From Acidimicrobiaceae bacterium (GTDB lineage: Bacteria; Actinomycetota; Acidimicrobiia; Acidimicrobiales; RAAP-2): a stretch of DNA of 43,690 bases. Each line of letters opens with the position of its first letter. Within the stretch, counting starts at the first letter, position 1. The notes beneath the pieces were generated by a model. The model was not told the DNA's origin, searched no databases, and saw only the letters and a program-made list of their open reading frames with translations. Below are positions 26,502 through 43,487 of this stretch, piece by piece. The translations under genes and the position numbers were made by a program. Location: NCBI GenBank assembly GCA_003164095.1, contig PLRX01000158.1:1-43690 (forward strand). Reading direction: 5' to 3'.

Positions 26502-26648
26502 GTCTCCGCCTCACCGCGTGGCCACGTCGCCTCCGCCCGGTAGGCGGACGTTGCCGAAGCACGGGAAGCTGGACGCCGCCGCCGGAGCCCACGTCACGGA
26601 GCGGCCGAGCGGATCGCCCCCCGGAGGGTGCACGGTCGGGTGCCGTCA

Positions 26649-26669
26649 GCACTCACTAGAGTGGAGTGC
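26649..26669. promoter_or_regulatory. CIRCE operator with embedded -10 box
   Basis: GCACTC-N9-GAGTGC (26649-26654 and 26664-26669) preserves the core and 9-base spacing of the HrcA-binding CIRCE element (TTAGCACTC-N9-GAGTGCTAA). A TAGAGT -10 hexamer (26657-26662) sits inside the spacer, so HrcA binding would occlude RNA polymerase. This indicates heat-shock autoregulation of hrcA-dnaJ. Confidence 0.85.
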
Positions 26670-26735
26670 CAGACCAGACCAGACCGGGTGCCCGGTGGGC
26701 GCCCGCCCATGCACGAACTCTCCCTGGTGAGCCCC

Positions 26736-27800
26736 ATGCCGACCGTCGACGACCGCAGACACGAGCACACGCCGCAGACCGACGCGGACCTCGACTCCCG
26801 CAAGGCGGCGATCCTCACGGCCGTGGTCACCGAGTACATCGGGACTGCCCAGCCCGTGGGGTCCCAGCACGTGGTCGACGCTCCCGGCGTGAGCGTGTCG
26901 TCGGCGACCGTGCGATCCGACATGGCCGCCCTCGAGCGGGACGGCTTCCTGGTCCAGCCGCACACGAGTGCCGGCCGCATCCCGACCGACAAGGGCTACC
27001 GCTTCTTCGTCGACCACCTCGGCGCAACGAGCTCCCTCGACCCGGGCGGCCGCCAGCAGGTGCGACAGTTCTTCGATCACGCCCACGGGGAGATCGAGCT
27101 GATGCTCGAGCGCACCTCGGGCCTGCTCGCCGACCTGACGGACTGCACCGCCATGGTGGTCGGCCCGTCCCACGAGTCCGCCGTCGTGCGGTCGGTGCAG
27201 CTCGTCGGACTCGGGCACCGACTCTGCCTGGTGGTGGTGGTCCTGGCCGACGGGGCCGTCCGGAAGCAGACCGTCGAACTGCCCGACGACGCTGACGACT
27301 CCGTGCTGGCCGAGGCCGGTGCCCGGGTGGCCGCCCACGCCCTCGGGGTGCCTCTGGCCCAGGTGGGTGCCACCGTCCCGCCGAGCGGGAACCCGACGGT
27401 GGACATCGTGATGGCGTCAGCCGTCTCCGCGCTGCACTCGCTGGGCGAGGCGGACGGGGCCGAGCAGCTGTTCGTCGGCGGCTCGTCGCGCATGGCCGCC
27501 GCCTTCGACGCGGTGGACACCGTTCGCTCGGTGCTGACCATCCTCGAGCAGCAGCTGGTGGTGGTCTCGCTGCTACGCGACATCCTCGACACCGGGCTGA
27601 CGGTCGCCATCGGCACCGAGCACGGCGTCGAGCCGCTCGCCTCGTGCGCCATCGTGGTCATGCCGGTGTCGGTCGACGGCGTCGAGGCGGGCACGATCGG
27701 ACTGCTCGGCCCGACGCGGATGAACTACCCGCTCGCCCTGGCCGCGGCCACGGTGGTCGGGCACCGGCTCGGTGAGCGCCTCGGCGAGGCGACCCGATGA
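26736..27800 (+). CDS. hrcA: Heat-inducible transcription repressor HrcA
   Basis: This 354-residue repressor binds CIRCE operators and is released on heat stress. The N-terminal winged helix is clear (RKAAILTAVVTEYIGTAQPV, then SSATVRSDMAALERDGFL and HTSAGRIPTDKGYRFFVD), followed by the GAF-like dimerisation domain. ATG 26736 is chosen for a GGTGAG sequence 4 bases upstream; in-frame ATG 26709 is also possible. A CIRCE element lies about 70 bases upstream, so it represses itself. The stop overlaps dnaJ (ATGA), giving the classical hrcA-dnaJ operon. Confidence 0.95.
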   Translation: MPTVDDRRHEHTPQTDADLDSRKAAILTAVVTEYIGTAQPVGSQHVVDAPGVSVSSATVRSDMAALERDGFLVQPHTSAGRIPTDKGYRFFVDHLGATSSLDPGGRQQVRQFFDHAHGEIELMLERTSGLLADLTDCTAMVVGPSHESAVVRSVQLVGLGHRLCLVVVVLADGAVRKQTVELPDDADDSVLAEAGARVAAHALGVPLAQVGATVPPSGNPTVDIVMASAVSALHSLGEADGAEQLFVGGSSRMAAAFDAVDTVRSVLTILEQQLVVVSLLRDILDTGLTVAIGTEHGVEPLASCAIVVMPVSVDGVEAGTIGLLGPTRMNYPLALAAATVVGHRLGERLGEATR

Positions 27801-28939
27801 CCGACACCGATCTCTACGAGCTCCTCGGCGTCGGTCGTGACGCCACCGACGAGGAGCTGAAGCGTGCCTACCGGACGAAGGCACGGCAGTTCCACCCGGA
27901 CACCAACCACGCCGGCTCGGAGGACGACGAGCACTTCAAGGAGATCAGCCTCGCCTACGAGGTCCTCCGTGACCCCGAACGACGGGCTCGCTACGACCGC
28001 TTCGGCCATGCTGGCGTCTTCGGGCAGGCTGCCGGCGGCCCCGGACAGGGCGACCCGTTCGGTGCGGGCGGCCTGGGCGACCTCTTCGACGCCTTCTTCG
28101 GCGGGATGGGCGGCGCGCAGGCCGGCCGTGCGCGACGTCCGGGGCCGACACCGGGGCCCGACGCAGAGCTGACGGTCGACCTCGCATTCCGTGAGGCGGT
28201 GTTCGGCGTCCAGCGTGAGGTCGATGTCACGGTTCCCGTCCACTGCGATACCTGCGAGGGATCGGGTGCCACGCCGGGCACGTCGGTCACCCGGTGCCCC
28301 GAGTGCCAGGGTGCGGGCGAGCTCCGCCGCGTGCGCCAGTCCATCCTCGGGCAGGTCATCACCGCGGTGCCCTGTCCACGCTGCCAGGGGACGGGCCAGT
28401 CGATCGAGTCGCCGTGTGCGGACTGCCGGGGCGAGGGCCGCCGCAGCGAGCCACGCACGCTGACCGTGGACATCCCGGCGGGGGTCGACGACGGGTCGAC
28501 GCTACGGCTCGCCGGCCACGGCCCCGCCGGCTTCCGGGGTGGCCCCAACGGTGCGCTCTTCGTGCACCTGGCGGTCCGTCCCGATGACGACTTCGAGCGG
28601 TCGGGGGTCGACCTCCACGCCACCGTGCATGTGCCGATGGCACTCGCGGCGCTCGGCGGCAGCGTGCCGTTCGACACGCTCGACGACCAACGGGACCTGT
28701 CGATCGCCGAGGGGACCCAGAGCGGCGCCGTCCTGACCCTCAAGGGCCTGGGCGTGCCGAAGCTGCGCGGCCGGGGCCGGGGCGACCTCTACCTCCACGT
28801 GCAGGTGGACACGCCCACCGAGCTCGACGACCAGCAGCGTGAGCTGCTCGTCCGACTGGCCGAGCTCCGCGCCGAGGAACTCGGCGAGGCGCCGCACGCG
28901 GAGGGATTCCTCTCCAAGCTGCGCTCAGCGCTGAGCTGA
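27797..28939 (+). CDS. dnaJ: Chaperone DnaJ
   Basis: This 380-residue type I J-protein stimulates DnaK ATPase and delivers unfolded substrates. The J domain has HPD at 33-35; a Gly/Phe-rich segment follows; four zinc-binding CxxCxGxG repeats are seen (CDTCEGSG, CPECQGAG, CPRCQGTG, CADCRGEG); then the C-terminal substrate-binding domains. It is translationally coupled to hrcA by ATGA and is therefore under CIRCE control. No dnaK or grpE is present here, so this is probably a second dnaJ (DnaJ2-like), as in other actinobacteria. Confidence 0.97.
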   Translation: MTDTDLYELLGVGRDATDEELKRAYRTKARQFHPDTNHAGSEDDEHFKEISLAYEVLRDPERRARYDRFGHAGVFGQAAGGPGQGDPFGAGGLGDLFDAFFGGMGGAQAGRARRPGPTPGPDAELTVDLAFREAVFGVQREVDVTVPVHCDTCEGSGATPGTSVTRCPECQGAGELRRVRQSILGQVITAVPCPRCQGTGQSIESPCADCRGEGRRSEPRTLTVDIPAGVDDGSTLRLAGHGPAGFRGGPNGALFVHLAVRPDDDFERSGVDLHATVHVPMALAALGGSVPFDTLDDQRDLSIAEGTQSGAVLTLKGLGVPKLRGRGRGDLYLHVQVDTPTELDDQQRELLVRLAELRAEELGEAPHAEGFLSKLRSALS

Positions 28940-28941
28940 CC

Positions 28942-29736
28942 GTGACACCAGGGCGGGGCGCCGACGACGCGCCCGGCCGTCCGGCGCCGGACGGACCCGA
29001 CCCGGTGCTGGTGGCGGCGGCCGCCATGGTCTTCGTCGCCGACCCCCTGCAACCGGCGGTCGAGGATGCCGACGTGCGCCACCTGCTCGACGTCCTGCGC
29101 CTCCGCGCCGGCGAGCCGGTGGCGGTGTCCGACGGAGCCGGGCGGTGGACCCCCTGCCGGGTGGCGGCCGGTGCCCCGTCGCGTGGGTCCCGCCGGGTGG
29201 ACGGGACCGGACTGCTGGTTCCGGACGGCCCCGTCGTGTACGTGCCCCGACCGGGACCCGAGCTGACGGTGGCCTTCACGCCGACGAAGGGCGACCGCCC
29301 CGAATGGGTGGCGCAGAAGCTCACGGAGCTGGGGGTCGACCGCATCGTGCCGCTGCGGACGGCTCGATCGGTGGTCCGTTGGGAGGGGGAGCGCGGCGAC
29401 AAGCAGGTGGATCGACTGCGGAGAGTGGCGCGGGAGGCATCCGCACAGTGCCGTCGGGTCTGGCTGCCCGAGGTCTGCGGCGTGTGCCGGCTCGACGGGC
29501 TGGTCGACGTCACCGGCACCGCACCCGCACTCGCCGACCCGGGAGGCGACCCTCCGGGCCTGGACCGGCCCGTGATCGCCGTGGGGCCCGAGGGTGGGTG
29601 GGACGATGACGAGCGCACTGCTGTGACCAGCACCGTCGGCCTCGGCTCGACCGTTCTGCGGGCCGAGACGGCGGCGGTGGTCGCAGGTGCACTCCTGTGT
29701 GCGCTGCGTTGCAGTGTGGTTCTACCCCTTGCGTAA
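28942..29736 (+). CDS. rsmE: 16S rRNA (uracil-1498-N3) methyltransferase
   Basis: This 264-residue SPOUT-class methyltransferase modifies U1498 of 16S rRNA. An N-terminal PUA-like domain (FVADPLQPA...HLLDVLRLRAGEPV) is followed by the trefoil-knot domain with AFTPTKGDRPEWVAQKLTELG and the AdoMet-binding AVGPEGGWDDDE and LGSTVLRAETA segments. GTG 28942 starts 2 bases after the dnaJ stop, so it is in the hrcA operon. A short Gly/Pro-rich N-terminal tail precedes the fold. The position after dnaJ is widely conserved. Confidence 0.95.
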   Translation: MTPGRGADDAPGRPAPDGPDPVLVAAAAMVFVADPLQPAVEDADVRHLLDVLRLRAGEPVAVSDGAGRWTPCRVAAGAPSRGSRRVDGTGLLVPDGPVVYVPRPGPELTVAFTPTKGDRPEWVAQKLTELGVDRIVPLRTARSVVRWEGERGDKQVDRLRRVAREASAQCRRVWLPEVCGVCRLDGLVDVTGTAPALADPGGDPPGLDRPVIAVGPEGGWDDDERTAVTSTVGLGSTVLRAETAAVVAGALLCALRCSVVLPLA

Positions 29737-29773
29737 CCACGCTCCGTGAGGAAAACTGGAACCTGACAGGAAT

Positions 29774-29781
29774 TCACGTGA
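29774..29781. promoter_or_regulatory. Short palindrome upstream of the BldD-like gene
   Basis: TCACGTGA is a perfect 8-base palindrome in the 156-base gap before the BldD-like gene. It resembles the half-sites of BldD operators (TnAC/GTnA) but lacks their usual central spacer, so autoregulation is only a suggestion. No clear -10 box was assigned in this gap. Confidence 0.25.
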
Positions 29782-29892
29782 CAACGAGCACCCTGAGTGC
29801 CCGTCATGGATCGTGAGTACAACATGCTCGGCGACGGGGGACCAACCCGGCCGGAGCTCGAGGGGCGACAGGTGGGGAGCGGAGACGTGGCC

Positions 29893-30483
29893 ATGACGGT
29901 GACCGACAAGACAGTCGTTGCAGTGGACGACGACGAGCAGGAGGAGGCGGCGAGAGTCGCCTATGCCCGGGCCGTCGGCTCCAGGCTGCGGGCGATGCGC
30001 AAGCAGATGCGCCTGTCGTTGCAGGCCGTCGAGGCCATGTCCGACCAGGAGTTCAAGGCGTCGGTGCTCGGTGCCTACGAGCGGGGCGAGCGGGCGATCT
30101 CGGTACCGCGCCTGCAGCGCCTGGCCAAGCTCTACGACGTGCCGGTGGACCAGCTGCTCCCGAACGACGACGCCGTGGCGGGCGGCCGTTGGGGCGGCGG
30201 CTCGTCGGAGGACGGCTCATTGGGAGGCCGGCGTGCGGCCGCCCCGTCCGGCGTGCCGGACAAGGTGGCGATCGACCTGACCAAGCTGCACACGGTGTCG
30301 GGCCCCGAGCGCGACCTGCTGCGACGGTTCCTCAGCATGATCCAGGTCCACCGCCAGGACTTCAACGGCCGGATGATCACCATCCGGGCCGAGGACGTGC
30401 GGGCGATCGCCTGTCTCTTCGGCGTGACGCCGGACAGCATGGGTGCCCGGCTCGACGAGCTCGGGCTGCTCGTCGCAGTCTGA
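29893..30483 (+). CDS. BldD-like c-di-GMP-responsive regulator
   Basis: This 196-residue protein has an N-terminal XRE-type helix-turn-helix (about 26-90: GSRLRAMRKQMRLSLQAVE, SVLGAYERGERAISV, LYDVPVDQLLP), a Gly/Ser-rich linker (93-120) and a C-terminal domain. The latter contains RQD (154-156), exactly eight residues, then RAED (165-168): the RxD-x8-RxxD signature by which Streptomyces BldD binds tetrameric c-di-GMP. BldD represses developmental genes when ligand-bound. ATG 29893 is preferred for a GGAG sequence 8 bases upstream; in-frame ATGs at 29806 and 29824 would add a tail. The stop overlaps the next HTH gene (TGATG). Confidence 0.88.
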   Translation: MTVTDKTVVAVDDDEQEEAARVAYARAVGSRLRAMRKQMRLSLQAVEAMSDQEFKASVLGAYERGERAISVPRLQRLAKLYDVPVDQLLPNDDAVAGGRWGGGSSEDGSLGGRRAAAPSGVPDKVAIDLTKLHTVSGPERDLLRRFLSMIQVHRQDFNGRMITIRAEDVRAIACLFGVTPDSMGARLDELGLLVAV

Positions 30484-30764
30484 TGGGCGACGGCCGGGAC
30501 GCGCCGATCAGCTGGCTGAGCACCAAGGAGGCCGCTGAGCGGCTCGGGGTCACCTTGCGCAGCCTGTACCGCTTCATCGACGAGGGCGGGCTGGTGGCCT
30601 ACAAGTTCGGGCGGGTGATCCGCCTCCAGGAGGCGGACGTCGAGTCGTTCATCGAGTCGAGCCGCATCCGTCCGGGCAGCCTGGAGCACCTCTATCCCGA
30701 GGTGAAGGGCCCGAGCCGCGTGGTCCACTCCATGGATCCGGGGCGCCTGGCCGCCGAAGGCTGA
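30483..30764 (+). CDS. Excisionase/MerR-type small DNA-binding protein
   Basis: This 93-residue protein has an excisionase-family winged helix-turn-helix (about 10-60: WLSTKEAAERLGVTLRSLYR, then GRVIRLQEADVESFIE) and a 30-residue C-terminal extension (GSLEHLYPEVKGPSR). Related small proteins such as BldC bind DNA in actinobacterial developmental control; others are phage or element excisionases. The TGATG junction with the BldD-like gene argues for a chromosomal regulatory role, since no integrase is nearby. Targets unknown. Confidence 0.85.
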   Translation: MGDGRDAPISWLSTKEAAERLGVTLRSLYRFIDEGGLVAYKFGRVIRLQEADVESFIESSRIRPGSLEHLYPEVKGPSRVVHSMDPGRLAAEG

Positions 30765-30840
30765 GCGCGACCCCGCGGGAGGTGCGAGGCGCTGCCCGCA
30801 CGCCGGGCGACCCCGCTCCGGGCGTGCGAGGATGAGCGCC

Positions 30841-31191
30841 ATGGCCGACTGCCTCTTCTGCTCCATCGTCGCCGGCGACGTGCCGGCCGACATCGTCCAT
30901 CGTGACGAACGCACCGTCGCGTTCCGGGACATCGCCCCACAGGCGCCCATCCACGTGCTGGTGGTCACCACCCGTCACATCGCCAACGCCGGCACCGTGG
31001 TCCCCGAGGACGCGGACGACGTCGTGGCCCTGCTGGTGACGGCCAAGGCCGTCGCCGACGCGGAGGGGATCGGCGCCGAGGACCGGGGGTACCGACTCGC
31101 CTTCAACGTTGGACCCGACGCTTCGAACAGCGTGCCCCACCTGCACCTCCACGTGCTCGGGGGGCGCTCGCTGGGCTGGCCCCCGGGCTGA
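30841..31191 (+). CDS. HIT-family nucleotide-binding hydrolase
   Basis: This 116-residue histidine-triad protein hydrolyses or transfers nucleoside monophosphates, typically acting on phosphoramidates such as AMP-lysine. The catalytic HLHLHVLGG motif places the triad at His100, His102 and His104. Cys4 and Cys7 form the N-terminal CxxC of the HinT/YcfF group. ATG 30841 is favoured by GAGGA upstream; ATG 30832 would add three residues. Its place before phoH-ybeY is a common bacterial order. Confidence 0.93.
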   Translation: MADCLFCSIVAGDVPADIVHRDERTVAFRDIAPQAPIHVLVVTTRHIANAGTVVPEDADDVVALLVTAKAVADAEGIGAEDRGYRLAFNVGPDASNSVPHLHLHVLGGRSLGWPPG

Positions 31192-31298
31192 GCCGTCCGA
31201 TCGGTCGCCGCGTGGTGGTACGTCCGGCGGCGCCCTGCCGACCCGTGTCCGACCCCCTGTGCGCGGCTGTGTGCGTCCGGAGGCGTCCGGGCCGCTGG

Positions 31299-31304
31299 TA
31301 GGGT
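31299..31304 (+). promoter_or_regulatory. Likely phoH -10 box
   Basis: TAGGGT lies 16 bases before GTG 31321, predicting a leader of about 10 bases or less. It starts the phoH-ybeY-CNNM-era operon. Confidence 0.4.
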
Positions 31305-31320
31305 CGCAGGCAGAGCGCAC

Positions 31321-32415
31321 GTGGCAGGCACCCCGGTAAAGATCCTCGTTCCCGGCAACCACCTCATGGCCGGTCTCCTCGGCCAGCGCGATGAGCTGCT
31401 CCGCCTGATCGAGGGCGCCTTCCCCGACGTGCACATCGCCGTCCGGGGTAATGAGGTCTCCGTCGAGGCGATCGGACCGGATGCCGGACCGGACGCCGAG
31501 CGGGTGGCATCCCTCTTCCAGGAGCTGATCATCCTGCTCGAGTCGGGCCAGGGTCTCGACGCCGTGCAGCTCCGACGGACGATCGACATGATGCGGGACG
31601 ATGTCCGACCGTCGGAGGTGCTGACCAGCGAACTCGTGCGGTCGACACGCGGCCGTGCCGTGCGCCCCAAGACGGCGGGGCAGAAGGCCTACGCAGACGC
31701 CATCACCCGGAACATCGTGACGTTCGGCGTCGGCCCGGCAGGCACCGGCAAGTCGTACCTGGCGGTGGCACTGGCCGTCCAGTCCCTCCAGGCCCGCCAG
31801 GTCAGCCGCATCATCCTGACCCGACCGGCCGTCGAGGCCGGGGAGCGCCTGGGCTTCCTACCCGGCGACATGCTGGCCAAGGTCGACCCGTACCTCCGAC
31901 CGCTCTACGACGCGCTGCACGACCTGCTCGAAGCGGAAGGCGCCCAACGTCTCATCGACAAGGGAGCCGTCGAGGTGGCCCCGCTGGCCTTCATGCGGGG
32001 GCGGACCCTCAACAACTCGTTCATCATCCTGGACGAGGCCCAGAACACCACTCCCGAGCAGATGAAGATGTTCCTGACCCGCATCGGCTTCGGCTCGAAG
32101 GCGGTCATCACCGGTGACATGACCCAGGTCGACATCCCCGGTGGCCGGTCCGGGCTGGTCGGACTCGAGTCCATGCTCAGCGGGGTCCCGGACCTCGCCT
32201 TCGTGCACCTGAAGGCCCAGGACGTGGTGCGCCACAAGATCGTGGCCGACATCGTCATGGCATATGACCGGGCCCCCGGCGCCGGCGGCACCATCGGGCC
32301 ACCCTCGTCCGCCGGCGGCTACGGCACTGCCTCGGGCAACGGCAGCGGCAGCGGCGGTAGCGCCCACGGCGACAACGGCGGTAGCGCCCACGGCGACAAC
32401 GGCAGCCCGTCGTGA
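31321..32415 (+). CDS. phoH: PhoH-like ATPase
   Basis: This 364-residue PhoH-family P-loop ATPase is probably RNA-related. A KH-like N-terminal region (about 1-110) precedes Walker A GPAGTGKS, RPAVEAGERLGFLPGD, Walker B FIILDEAQN and the TRIGFGSKAVITGDMTQ motif. After about residue 320 there is a low-complexity Gly/Ser tail with a perfect two-copy repeat of GGSAHGDN. GTG 31321 gives the usual N-terminus. The stop overlaps ybeY (GTGA). Association with YbeY suggests a role in rRNA maturation or quality control. Confidence 0.95.
   Translation: MAGTPVKILVPGNHLMAGLLGQRDELLRLIEGAFPDVHIAVRGNEVSVEAIGPDAGPDAERVASLFQELIILLESGQGLDAVQLRRTIDMMRDDVRPSEVLTSELVRSTRGRAVRPKTAGQKAYADAITRNIVTFGVGPAGTGKSYLAVALAVQSLQARQVSRIILTRPAVEAGERLGFLPGDMLAKVDPYLRPLYDALHDLLEAEGAQRLIDKGAVEVAPLAFMRGRTLNNSFIILDEAQNTTPEQMKMFLTRIGFGSKAVITGDMTQVDIPGGRSGLVGLESMLSGVPDLAFVHLKAQDVVRHKIVADIVMAYDRAPGAGGTIGPPSSAGGYGTASGNGSGSGGSAHGDNGGSAHGDNGSPS
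32353..32400 (+). repeat. Perfect 24-bp tandem duplication in the phoH 3' end
   Basis: Two identical 24-base units (32353-32376 and 32377-32400) encode GGSAHGDN twice in the disordered C-terminal tail. Perfect identity points to a recent duplication; copy number can change without a frameshift. Confidence 0.9.
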
Positions 32416-40956: not shown

Positions 40957-42309
40957 ATGACCCCGTCCGCGGTCGTCGTGTGGTTCCGACGCGACCTGCG
41001 ACTCGCCGACCACCCGGCACTGCAGGCAGCGGCCGACGAGGCGCGCACCCTGGGCCGCTCGCTGCTCGGCCTGTTCGTCGTCGAGGAAGGGCTGCTCGCC
41101 ACCGGTGGACCCAATCGCCGCGCCTACCTGGCCCGGACCCTGGCCGCGCTGGACGGAGCGCTCGACGGCCGGCTGGTGCTGAGGCGGGGCAGGCCGGAGG
41201 CGGTCGTCCCGCAGGTGGCAGCCGAAGTGTCGGCGTCGACGGTCCATGCCACCGGCGACTGCGCTCCCTACGGGCGACGCCGCGATGCCCGCGTGGCCGA
41301 GGCCCTCGCCGGCGACGATCGCCGCCTGGTGCGCACCGGCTCGCCCTACGCCGTGTCGCCGGGTCGGGTGCTCACCGGCGACGGGGGCCCGTACCGGGTG
41401 TTCACACCGTTCCGACGCGCCTGGGCGGCGCACGGCTGGCCCGCCCCGACGGACGCTCCTGCCGGCGTGCGGTGGGCGCAGGCGGGCCGCGAGCTGGCAC
41501 CGGCCGACCTCGAGCCCGACGCGGGTGACATCACCGCCACGCTGCCCACCGCCGGCGAGGCCGCCGCCACCGACCTGTCGGGCGCGTTCCTCGGCGGACC
41601 GTTCGCCACCTACGACGAGGACCGCGACCGGCCGGACCTGGCCGGCACCTCCCGGCTCTCGCCCCACCTCCGGTTCGGAGCGATCCACCCCCGCCAGATC
41701 CTGGACCGGGTGCCGGCCGGCACGTCGGGCGACGTGTTCCGTTCCGAGTTGGCCTGGCGGGAGTTCTACGCCGACGTGCTGTGGCACCGGCCGGACTCGG
41801 CGTGGGCCCCGCTGTCACCCGTCGGCGCCCACCTCCGGACCGACACCGGCCCCGAGGCCGACGCCCGGTTTGCCGCATGGGTGGCGGGGCGCACCGGCTA
41901 CCCGCTCGTCGATGCCGGGATGCGCCAGCTGTCGGCCGAGGGCTGGATGCACAACCGCCTGCGGATGCTCACGGCCTCGTTCCTCGTGAAGGACCTCCAC
42001 CTGCCCTGGCAGCGGGGGGCGGCCCACTTCCTGGACCTGCTCGTCGACGGCGACCTGGCCTCCAACAACCACGGGTGGCAGTGGGTGGCCGGGACGGGCA
42101 CTGACGCCGCCCCCTTCTACCGGGTGTTCAGCCCCGACCGGCAGGCCGAGCGCCTCGATCCCGCCGGCGCCTACGTGGCCCGCTACGTGCCCGAGCACGG
42201 CACCCCCGACTACCCGGCGCCGATCGTGGACCACGCCGTCGAGCGGGCGGAGGCACTGGACCGTTGGCAGGAGGCCAAGGAGACGGCCGCCCGGGCCGGG
42301 TCGGCATGA
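40957..42309 (+). CDS. phr: Deoxyribodipyrimidine photolyase (cryptochrome/photolyase family)
   Basis: This 450-residue photolyase has an N-terminal antenna domain (VVVWFRRDLRLADHPAL) and a C-terminal FAD domain with RLSPHLRFGAIHPRQ, ELAWREFYADVLW, WMHNRLRM and NNHGWQWVAGTGTDA. These are typical of class I CPD photolyases that repair UV pyrimidine dimers using light. ATG 40957 follows a GGGGGA sequence 20 bases after recO. The stop overlaps hemW (ATGA). Phr within the uppS-recO-hemW run groups two DNA-repair genes in one transcript. Confidence 0.95.
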   Translation: MTPSAVVVWFRRDLRLADHPALQAAADEARTLGRSLLGLFVVEEGLLATGGPNRRAYLARTLAALDGALDGRLVLRRGRPEAVVPQVAAEVSASTVHATGDCAPYGRRRDARVAEALAGDDRRLVRTGSPYAVSPGRVLTGDGGPYRVFTPFRRAWAAHGWPAPTDAPAGVRWAQAGRELAPADLEPDAGDITATLPTAGEAAATDLSGAFLGGPFATYDEDRDRPDLAGTSRLSPHLRFGAIHPRQILDRVPAGTSGDVFRSELAWREFYADVLWHRPDSAWAPLSPVGAHLRTDTGPEADARFAAWVAGRTGYPLVDAGMRQLSAEGWMHNRLRMLTASFLVKDLHLPWQRGAAHFLDLLVDGDLASNNHGWQWVAGTGTDAAPFYRVFSPDRQAERLDPAGAYVARYVPEHGTPDYPAPIVDHAVERAEALDRWQEAKETAARAGSA

Positions 42310-43487
42310 TGGGGAGCACCCCCGCCGACCTCGCCGGCGACACCGGGGCCGATCGCAGCGTCGATCGTGGTGCCGATCGTGGTGCCGAGGGCTCGGGCGA
42401 CCCGACCGGGCGACCGTTCGGGGTCTACGTCCACGTGCCGTTCTGCCGCCACCGGTGCGACTACTGCGCCTTCGCCACCTACACCGACCGGGACCACCTC
42501 ATGGAGGCCTACGCCGCGGCCTGCGTGACCGAGCTCGAGCGGGCAGTCGAACGCGAGGGCCTCCCGGCTGCCACCTCGGTGTTCTTCGGGGGCGGGACCC
42601 CGTCGCGTCTACCGGCCGACCTCCTGGTGTCGGTGCTCCACGCCGTCCCGCGCAGCCCGGGGGCCGAGGTGACGGTCGAGTGTAACCCGGAGGACGTGAC
42701 CGGCGACCTGCTGGCCGTCTACCGGAGTGCCGGTGTGACACGGGTCTCCCTCGGGGTGCAGTCCACCGTCGGTCACGTCCTCAAGGGCCTGGGCAGGAGG
42801 CACGGTCCCGACCACGTGACCACGGCCGCCACTCTGGTGGCGGGCGCGGGGTTCGACTCCTGGAACCTCGACCTCATCATGGGCGGGGCGGGGGAGAGCG
42901 ACGAGGACTGGGAGCGGAGCCTGTCCGACCTGCTGGGCCTGGCGTCGCCGCCGCCCCACCTGAGTGCCTATGCACTGACGGTGGAGCCGGGCACGCCGCT
43001 CGCCCGCACACCCGACCGCCATCCCGACGACGACGTCCAGGCCACGAGGTACGAGACGGCCGACCGGGTGCTCGACGGGGCCGGGTACCGGTGGGAGGAG
43101 ATCTCCAATTGGGCGCGCCCCGGGCACGAGTGCCGCCACAACCACCTCTACTGGGAGCAGGGCGACTACCGCGGCATCGGGTCGGCGGCCCACTCCCACC
43201 GGGACGGCCGTCGCTGGTGGAACGTCCGGACGCCCGACCGCTTCGTCGCACTGATCGACGACGACCGGTCGACCGAGGCGGGGGAGGAGGTCCTGGACGG
43301 CCCGGCCCGGGAATTCGAGGCACTGGCCCTCGCCCTGCGCACACCCGCCGGGGTGCCCGACGGGGCGCTCCCTGACGATCCGGACCTGGACGGGCTCGTC
43401 GACCGGTCGTCCGGCCGGGCGGTGCTGACGGTGCGGGGGCGCCTGCTGGCGAACGCCGTCACCCGCCGCCTCGTCGTACCGACCTGA
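42306..43487 (+). CDS. hemW: HemW-type radical SAM protein (heme chaperone)
   Basis: This 393-residue radical SAM protein has CRHRCDYC with Cys47, Cys51 and Cys54 (CxxxCxxC) binding the 4Fe-4S cluster, FFGGGTPSRL for SAM binding, and a C-terminal HemN-like domain. The short HemW form lacks the N-terminal extension of true coproporphyrinogen dehydrogenase and is thought to insert heme into proteins. An N-terminal tail of about 35 residues includes an imperfect 12-base repeat. ATG 42306 overlaps the photolyase stop (ATGA). In many genomes hemW sits between lepA and hrcA; here it is downstream of recO/phr. Confidence 0.93.
   Translation: MMGSTPADLAGDTGADRSVDRGADRGAEGSGDPTGRPFGVYVHVPFCRHRCDYCAFATYTDRDHLMEAYAAACVTELERAVEREGLPAATSVFFGGGTPSRLPADLLVSVLHAVPRSPGAEVTVECNPEDVTGDLLAVYRSAGVTRVSLGVQSTVGHVLKGLGRRHGPDHVTTAATLVAGAGFDSWNLDLIMGGAGESDEDWERSLSDLLGLASPPPHLSAYALTVEPGTPLARTPDRHPDDDVQATRYETADRVLDGAGYRWEEISNWARPGHECRHNHLYWEQGDYRGIGSAAHSHRDGRRWWNVRTPDRFVALIDDDRSTEAGEEVLDGPAREFEALALALRTPAGVPDGALPDDPDLDGLVDRSSGRAVLTVRGRLLANAVTRRLVVPT

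Follow-up and report, generated by a model that had tools for sequence, protein, structure and literature searches.

The BldD box of Streptomyces is TNAC(N)5GTNA, and K84, I110, N118, S123 and R130 are secondary c-di-GMP contacts of the Streptomyces protein, according to the parts of PMC4151990 drawn on here. A convincing bldD orthologue has been described in Acidimicrobium, and the gene dates back to very early actinobacteria (PMC4255298, consulted in part); the kind of protein described below is therefore already known. RsiG-WhiG is another c-di-GMP switch, for which the excerpted text of PMC8325347 gives twin-motif RsiG in three of four Acidimicrobiales and a pilus role in Rubrobacter.

The second gene considered here also has a precedent. 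Mlut_14660 of Micrococcus luteus is an HTH_17 gene of the excisionase family that is divergent from cpaB-cpaE, and other genera are reported to have similar arrangements, which means that Tad linkage of an HTH_17 gene has been seen before (PMC8467076, in part). When put back alone, the R64W substitution in Mlut_14660 gave the same rise in comEA/EC promoter activity as in its parent mutant, and a single mutation near the Mlut_14660 ribosome-binding site did likewise for its own parent; a mutation in the 5′ untranslated region did not reproduce the promoter rise but lowered transformation 100- to 1000-fold. Without the cpaB-like gene, promoter activity rose and transformation fell 10,000-fold. 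No deletion of Mlut_14660 itself could be obtained, and the authors regard com-promoter binding and a direct pilus role as points still to be verified (same excerpts of PMC8467076). The literature on BldD, Tad/Flp pili and Acidimicrobiales, represented mostly by titles and the openings of abstracts, yielded no account of an orphan HTH_17 gene beside bldD. At the present locus bldD, itself of a known kind, has an instructive neighbourhood.

We analysed a 43,690-nucleotide stretch of an Acidimicrobiaceae contig (PLRX01000158.1 of assembly GCA_003164095.1; hereinafter the window), in which a bldD homologue is followed by a small HTH_17 gene (Table 1). The initial annotation had placed the two genes in a chaperone/ribosome operon region, and Pfam matches confirm hrcA, dnaJ, rsmE, the HIT gene and phoH; ybeY, corC and era were named by eye. 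Also by eye, a hemW-like gene was recognized at 42264-43487, ~12 kb downstream of bldD; a hemW-like gene precedes hrcA in outer families. In the loci compared below, the label hemW stands for a Radical_SAM match and the label carboxyltransferase for a carboxyl-transferase match.

Table 1 Features of the bldD/HTH_17 locus, in window coordinates
Feature	Position	Strand	Basis or remark
hrcA, start uncertain	26628..27800	+	Pfam HrcA, searched from 26724
dnaJ	27797..28939	+	Pfam DnaJ, DnaJ_C
rsmE-type RNA methyltransferase, upstream neighbour	28942..29736	+	Pfam Methyltrans_RNA
Candidate BldD-box-like site CCACGCTCCGTGA	29737..29749	+	Within conserved block 29729-29759, rsmE-bldD interval
bldD homologue, 196 aa	29893..30483	+	ATG start; in-frame GTG at 29797 possible
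DNA-binding domain, N-terminal, residues 23-90	29959..30162	+	phmmer to 2ewt residues 4-71; model superposition
Predicted c-di-GMP domain, C-terminal, residues 122-193	30256..30471	+	phmmer to 4oaz/2mc4; Foldseek
Motif 1, R154-Q-D156	30352..30360	+	Signature position and conservation
Motif 2, R165-A-E-D168	30385..30396	+	Signature position and conservation
Excisionase-family HTH_17 protein, 93 aa	30483..30764	+	TIGR01764/HTH_17; synteny
HIT-family protein, downstream neighbour	30832..31191	+	Pfam HIT
phoH	31321..32415	+	Pfam PhoH

Sequence comparison confirms the product of the first gene of the pair as a BldD homologue of two domains whose c-di-GMP signature is intact. The N-terminal HTH proposed at the outset is borne out by a Pfam HTH_3 match at residues 32-88 and by a phmmer match to the Streptomyces BldD DNA-binding domain 2ewt (E 5.6e-16), and the C-terminal half matches BldD-like_C at residues 124-193 (65.6 bits, cut-off 27) as well as the c-di-GMP-bound Streptomyces BldD C-terminal domain 4oaz (phmmer E 6.5e-9). 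Numerous orthologues start their alignment at the ATG at 29893. In the predicted model (mean pLDDT 75.6, pTM 0.42), the N-terminal half superimposes on 2ewt and 4ob4 with TM-scores of 0.90-0.92 and the C-terminal half gives Foldseek TM-scores of 0.78-0.80 to 4oaz and 5khd and 0.66 to 2mc4, all by target length; Foldseek identity to 4ob4 is 54%. The protein accounts for the single BldD-C match in the window's genome (3.7 Mb, 95.5% complete), and its 47 named relatives include 27 from Acidimicrobiaceae/Acidimicrobiales and 17 from Actinomycetes. Its score against the NCBIfam BldD equivalog NF050110 is 138.6 bits, below the curated cut-off of 250. Of six proteins scored as controls, one, Streptomyces-like, lies above it (306.7) and five Acidimicrobiia or other-class homologues, including that of genome G140, lie below (125-209); since only the Streptomyces-like control exceeds the cut-off, NCBI's BldD name is narrower than the family, and we therefore assign the window protein to the wider Pfam family of BldD homologues and do not give it the narrow name.

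Two side observations concern the distribution of the family. Genomes of families f23 and f71 (G069, G111, G135, G168, G284 and G345) hold four to five BldD-like_C matches each, some of them in much longer open frames, which suggests an expanded regulator family. Contigs filed as Acidobacteriota and Eremiobacterota (L074 and L095) carry the window's locus at 74% and 85% identity, respectively, and the filing of both is possibly a binning error.

The c-di-GMP signature RxD-X8-RxxD occurs once in the protein, with R154, D156, R165 and D168 exactly where the initial annotation placed them. As the bare pattern arises in 248 of 20,000 shuffles of the sequence and is weak evidence alone, the argument is carried by homology and conservation, and on both grounds we rejected a chance occurrence. 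Conservation was surveyed in 159 sequences, collapsed to 109, with matches beginning past residue 40 left out. All four residues are found in every distinct close orthologue but one (39 of 40), that one (L087) ending at a contig edge; in another of the 40 (L098) the gene after bldD is hemW-like instead of HTH_17. They are likewise complete in all four of L100-L103, in 22 of 23 sequences from the hrcA-dnaJ locus of other Acidimicrobiia, in all three second BldD copies and in 32 of 32 sequences from other classes, a sample that leans to good matches since it was drawn mainly from the best 30 BldD-C matches. Loss of the four residues among orthologues had been named in advance as a finding that would speak against c-di-GMP control; the close orthologues retain them, but among seven divergent same-family sequences (genera g8, g13 and g14) two have all four and five lack motif 1. 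In an alignment to a Streptomyces-like sequence, the window equivalents of K84, I110, N118 and R130 are kept and S123 is replaced by T. The second BldD copies, at other Acidimicrobiia loci (L158-L160), do not keep R130.

Genera g8 and g14 present a distinct arrangement. In L022-L026 and L161-L165 (g8) and L020/L167 (g14), motif 1 of BldD is eroded and the DNA-binding domain is intact or nearly unchanged; the erosion affects four of five g8 genomes and the g14 genome, and the bldD gene concerned lies outside the hrcA-dnaJ-rsmE locus. In all five g8 loci bldD is next to a gene judged by eye to be peroxiredoxin-like, and in two of them (L162 and L165) a GGDEF-EAL gene is also close to bldD.

Enzymes of c-di-GMP metabolism are abundant in the window's genome, with 16 GGDEF and 14 EAL matches, one of the latter partial. 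Across 61 genomes of the window's family (f1), bldD is found in 25, all of which have GGDEF; the 15 genomes without GGDEF include none with bldD (Fisher p 1.3e-4, uncorrected for kinship and genome size). SsgA and SsgA-like proteins are a marker of Streptomyces-type sporulation. A search for SsgA found none in the window's genome, G140 or G427, and both Streptomyces-like controls were positive (6 and 5 matches). There is no pointer to sporulation in the window's genome, and the developmental role proposed for the regulator in the initial annotation is not upheld: SsgA was not found in this genome, and a bldD gene of Acidimicrobium was already in print (PMC4255298, in part).

Upstream of bldD, in an rsmE-bldD interval of 156 bases in the window, alignment of 39 distinct regions reveals one conserved block, about CCACGCTSMGTGR, in which an AC-N5-GT core with BldD-box spacing is present in all 39. 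The window's site in this block is one outer base off the published box (C for T), the outer T being almost always C in the aligned regions. The exact published box occurs at the block in none of the 39 regions and anywhere within them in five (shuffle mean 1.1, maximum 6), and T(A/C)ACGCTGCGTAA is found upstream of bldD in three Streptomyces-like loci. Because the core pattern was taken from the f1 footprint, its count in f1 (35 of 43, L100-L103 included) is circular, and the independent test is that of 27 other Acidimicrobiia loci (L100-L103 included), where it occurs upstream of bldD in 10 (mean 0.56 and maximum 4 in 200 shuffles); no such site was found in the remaining 17. Control upstream regions of the same loci contain it in 0/26 (hrcA), 0/27 (dnaJ), 0/23 (rsmE) and 1/23 (hemW) cases, an imperfect control in that the first three are partly coding. 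In other classes the pattern lies upstream of bldD in 17 of 33 loci, versus 1.84 for random windows. Judged from sequence, bldD is likely to be autoregulated via the predicted site at 29737-29749.

A wider regulon is not visible by site scanning in the window's genome. The core pattern is unenriched across the window (3 found, 4.5 expected), and the longer consensus with at most one mismatch gives 0 matches there against 4.1 expected; the window's own site would not stand out by itself. The strict site occurs seven times genome-wide versus four in the reversed control. Ten of the 16 GGDEF matches were scanned, with any site in three of the ten stretches (4.5 expected). A promoter scan of 29600-31400 found no promoter. 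Strict BldD-box-like sites in two other contigs of this genome, C105 (L229:1501-1512) and C123 (L231:1501-1512), lie ~55 and ~100 bases upstream of genes whose products look secreted, as judged by eye.

The 93-aa product of the neighbouring gene scores 53.7 bits against TIGR01764 (cut-off 28.8) and 50.3 bits against Pfam HTH_17 (cut-off 27). Of its first description as excisionase/BldC-like, the excisionase family stands; the likeness to BldC is at most one of general fold. BldC is absent from its sequence matches at E up to 10, profile included, and we rejected BldC membership on this ground; Foldseek with a weak model (pLDDT 72) returns Xis, RacA, BldC and RdfS at similar, non-significant E-values.

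Outside f1 and the sister family f5, a Tad/Flp cluster has its cpaB and/or cpaE divergent from the HTH_17 gene in 25 of 28 retrieved loci, the exceptions being L187, L191 (short) and L197; in the window the HTH_17 gene has no divergent cpaB or cpaE. CpaB (RcpC, SAF), CpaF (T2SSE) and TadC (T2SSF) are Pfam-supported in representative loci, and CpaE and TadB were named from position and similarity. Among 396 genomes of the phylum, strong HTH_17 matches occur in 34, close CpaF (60% identity or more, with at most four candidates scored per genome) in 27 and both in 26 (Fisher p 1.3e-32, kinship uncorrected), the genomes counted in this and the other HTH_17, CpaF and bldD comparisons being non-independent. 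Two of the 27 close CpaF genes are in pieces (G253 and G069). HTH_17 without close CpaF is seen in eight genomes (the window's G000, G278, G140, G146, G364, G373, G408 and G439) and close CpaF without strong HTH_17 in G378 only. Close CpaF was found in none of the 61 f1 genomes, with a top identity of 38%.

Seven Acidimicrobiales genomes outside f1 and f5 contain both bldD and a strong HTH_17 match, and in four of them (G140, G350, G427 and G435) the two genes, 9-15 kb apart, flank the Tad genes; they are ~337 kb apart in G340 and on separate contigs in G194 and G330. The order hrcA-dnaJ-rsmE-bldD is common to G140 and the window, but in G140 a hemW-like gene directly follows bldD, with the Tad genes and the HTH_17 gene further along. 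At 23 other Acidimicrobiia bldD loci (L135-L157), the next gene is hemW-like in 13, phoH in six and HTH_17 in one (G278, f5); in three, none of these genes is within reach.

We consider it probable that the window encodes a BldD orthologue under c-di-GMP control and that its HTH_17 neighbour is a separate Tad-divergon regulator, left beside bldD after loss of an intervening block. We infer c-di-GMP binding, dimerisation, repression and the existence of targets for the window BldD: at high c-di-GMP, a c-di-GMP cage would join two C-terminal domains, and the paired HTH domains of the dimer would bind BldD-box-like sites, the protein's own promoter among them; as c-di-GMP falls, the dimer would open and release its targets. 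The HTH_17 protein would be a DNA-binding regulator in its own right, forming a divergon with Tad/Flp pilus genes elsewhere. In several other Acidimicrobiales, bldD and HTH_17 mark the ends of a ~9-15 kb pilus-operon block, usually with a hemW-like gene; in f1 this block would have gone and the HTH_17 gene, kept in place, would have become the neighbour of bldD. On the simplest reading, the block was lost in f1 and f5 and not gained elsewhere. In some species the HTH_17 gene may share a transcript with bldD, and in f1 it would have to serve something other than that pilus operon.

The initial annotation had instead taken the pair for a two-regulator module of c-di-GMP-gated developmental control, which we considered in the form of a dedicated unit whose members are expressed together and act jointly. 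The TGATG overlap of the bldD stop and HTH_17 start that it described is present in the window, and the two genes are adjacent in all 18 of the f1 loci L001-L018, but the overlap recurs in only 6 of 43 distinct loci, with gaps of up to ~275 bases elsewhere, and bldD is beside the HTH_17 gene in none of the 28 loci outside f1 and f5, where the partner in 25 is the divergent Tad cluster. The survey of co-occurrence that the annotation called for cuts both ways: BldD-C accompanies strong HTH_17 in 30 of 34 genomes, compared with 115 of 396 genomes overall, but bldD matches are missing from 11 of the 33 f1 genomes in which HTH_17 matches strongly. With or without bldD, the HTH_17 gene in f1 occupies a place between rsmE and the HIT gene; eight of the 11 bldD-less loci were read, of which seven show rsmE-HTH_17-HIT and the eighth is cut by the contig start, and four g8 loci show the same order with bldD elsewhere. 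The core-pattern site is upstream of the HTH_17 gene in 0/41 loci, and the 28 HTH_17-Tad intergenic regions hold 0, 1 and 0 sites for three BldD-box-like patterns; a word search across 29 sequences preceding HTH_17 also turned up no common motif, the best word occurring in 18 versus 14, 15 and 19 in three shuffles. The SsgA result in the window's genome also counts against development. As HTH_17 keeps its place without bldD, the overlap is rare and the gene is Tad-linked elsewhere, we reject such a module and judge it unlikely. Still further from probable, to the point of being hardly credible, is that the HTH_17 protein acts as a genuine excisionase of a prophage or integrative element: the closest solved sequence to its family profile is indeed mycobacteriophage Pukovnik Xis (E 7e-4), and TIGR01764 is named for the excisionase family, but its neighbours are housekeeping genes, its place is fixed in the f1 loci read, a single strong copy is present in 32 of 33 f1 genomes and its pairing elsewhere is with divergent Tad genes, on which grounds this identity was rejected.

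A different doubt concerns the ligand, in that this lineage might have kept the BldD fold and DNA site and given up dependence on c-di-GMP. The divergent g8 and g14 sequences, with a nearly unchanged DNA-binding domain, a broken motif 1 and yet GGDEF proteins in the same genomes, indicate that the family can drop the ligand site; for the window protein such a loss appears improbable, given the retention of the four residues in every untruncated close orthologue, the secondary contacts kept alongside them and the number of GGDEF matches in its genome. The reading of a c-di-GMP-controlled BldD beside a separate Tad-divergon regulator can also be extended. In some Acidimicrobiales bldD and HTH_17 bracket a Tad pilus operon, and in its older actinobacterial role BldD might have linked c-di-GMP with surface appendages and the uptake of DNA instead of sporulation, with f1 having lost the pilus, kept both regulators and joined them in one transcription unit with new targets; we offer this as speculation with a small chance of being right.

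In a lineage that shows no sign of Streptomyces-type development, the locus has both an intact c-di-GMP signature in BldD and a site likely to serve autoregulation, which opens a direct approach to the ancestral role of BldD; a natural control is provided by a sister genus in which the ligand site is eroded and the DNA-binding domain intact. The HTH_17 gene, usually just named excisionase, gains a testable role as a regulator of the actinobacterial Tad pilus operon, an assignment that agrees with the Micrococcus luteus mutant data (PMC8467076, in part).

Compared with BldD of Streptomyces (2ewt, 4ob4, 4oaz and 5khd; PMC4151990, in part), the window protein is alike in domain order and in both folds, and has in common with it the RxD-X8-RxxD signature, most secondary c-di-GMP contacts and a related upstream site; it differs in a longer interdomain linker and in T in place of S123, its gene has a different chromosomal place (hrcA-dnaJ-rsmE), and SsgA was not found in its genome. 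BldD of Acidimicrobium (PMC4255298, in part) belongs to the same class as the window protein. The HTH_17 product and Streptomyces BldC (6ama, 6amk), a small winged-HTH protein of MerR-like fold, are linked by a weak Foldseek match (E 0.02-0.1), not by a sequence match at E up to 10. With Mlut_14660 (PMC8467076, in part) the product has in common that it is a small HTH_17 protein of the excisionase family; Mlut_14660 is divergent from cpaB-cpaE, whereas the window gene has no pilus genes beside it and has bldD as its neighbour.
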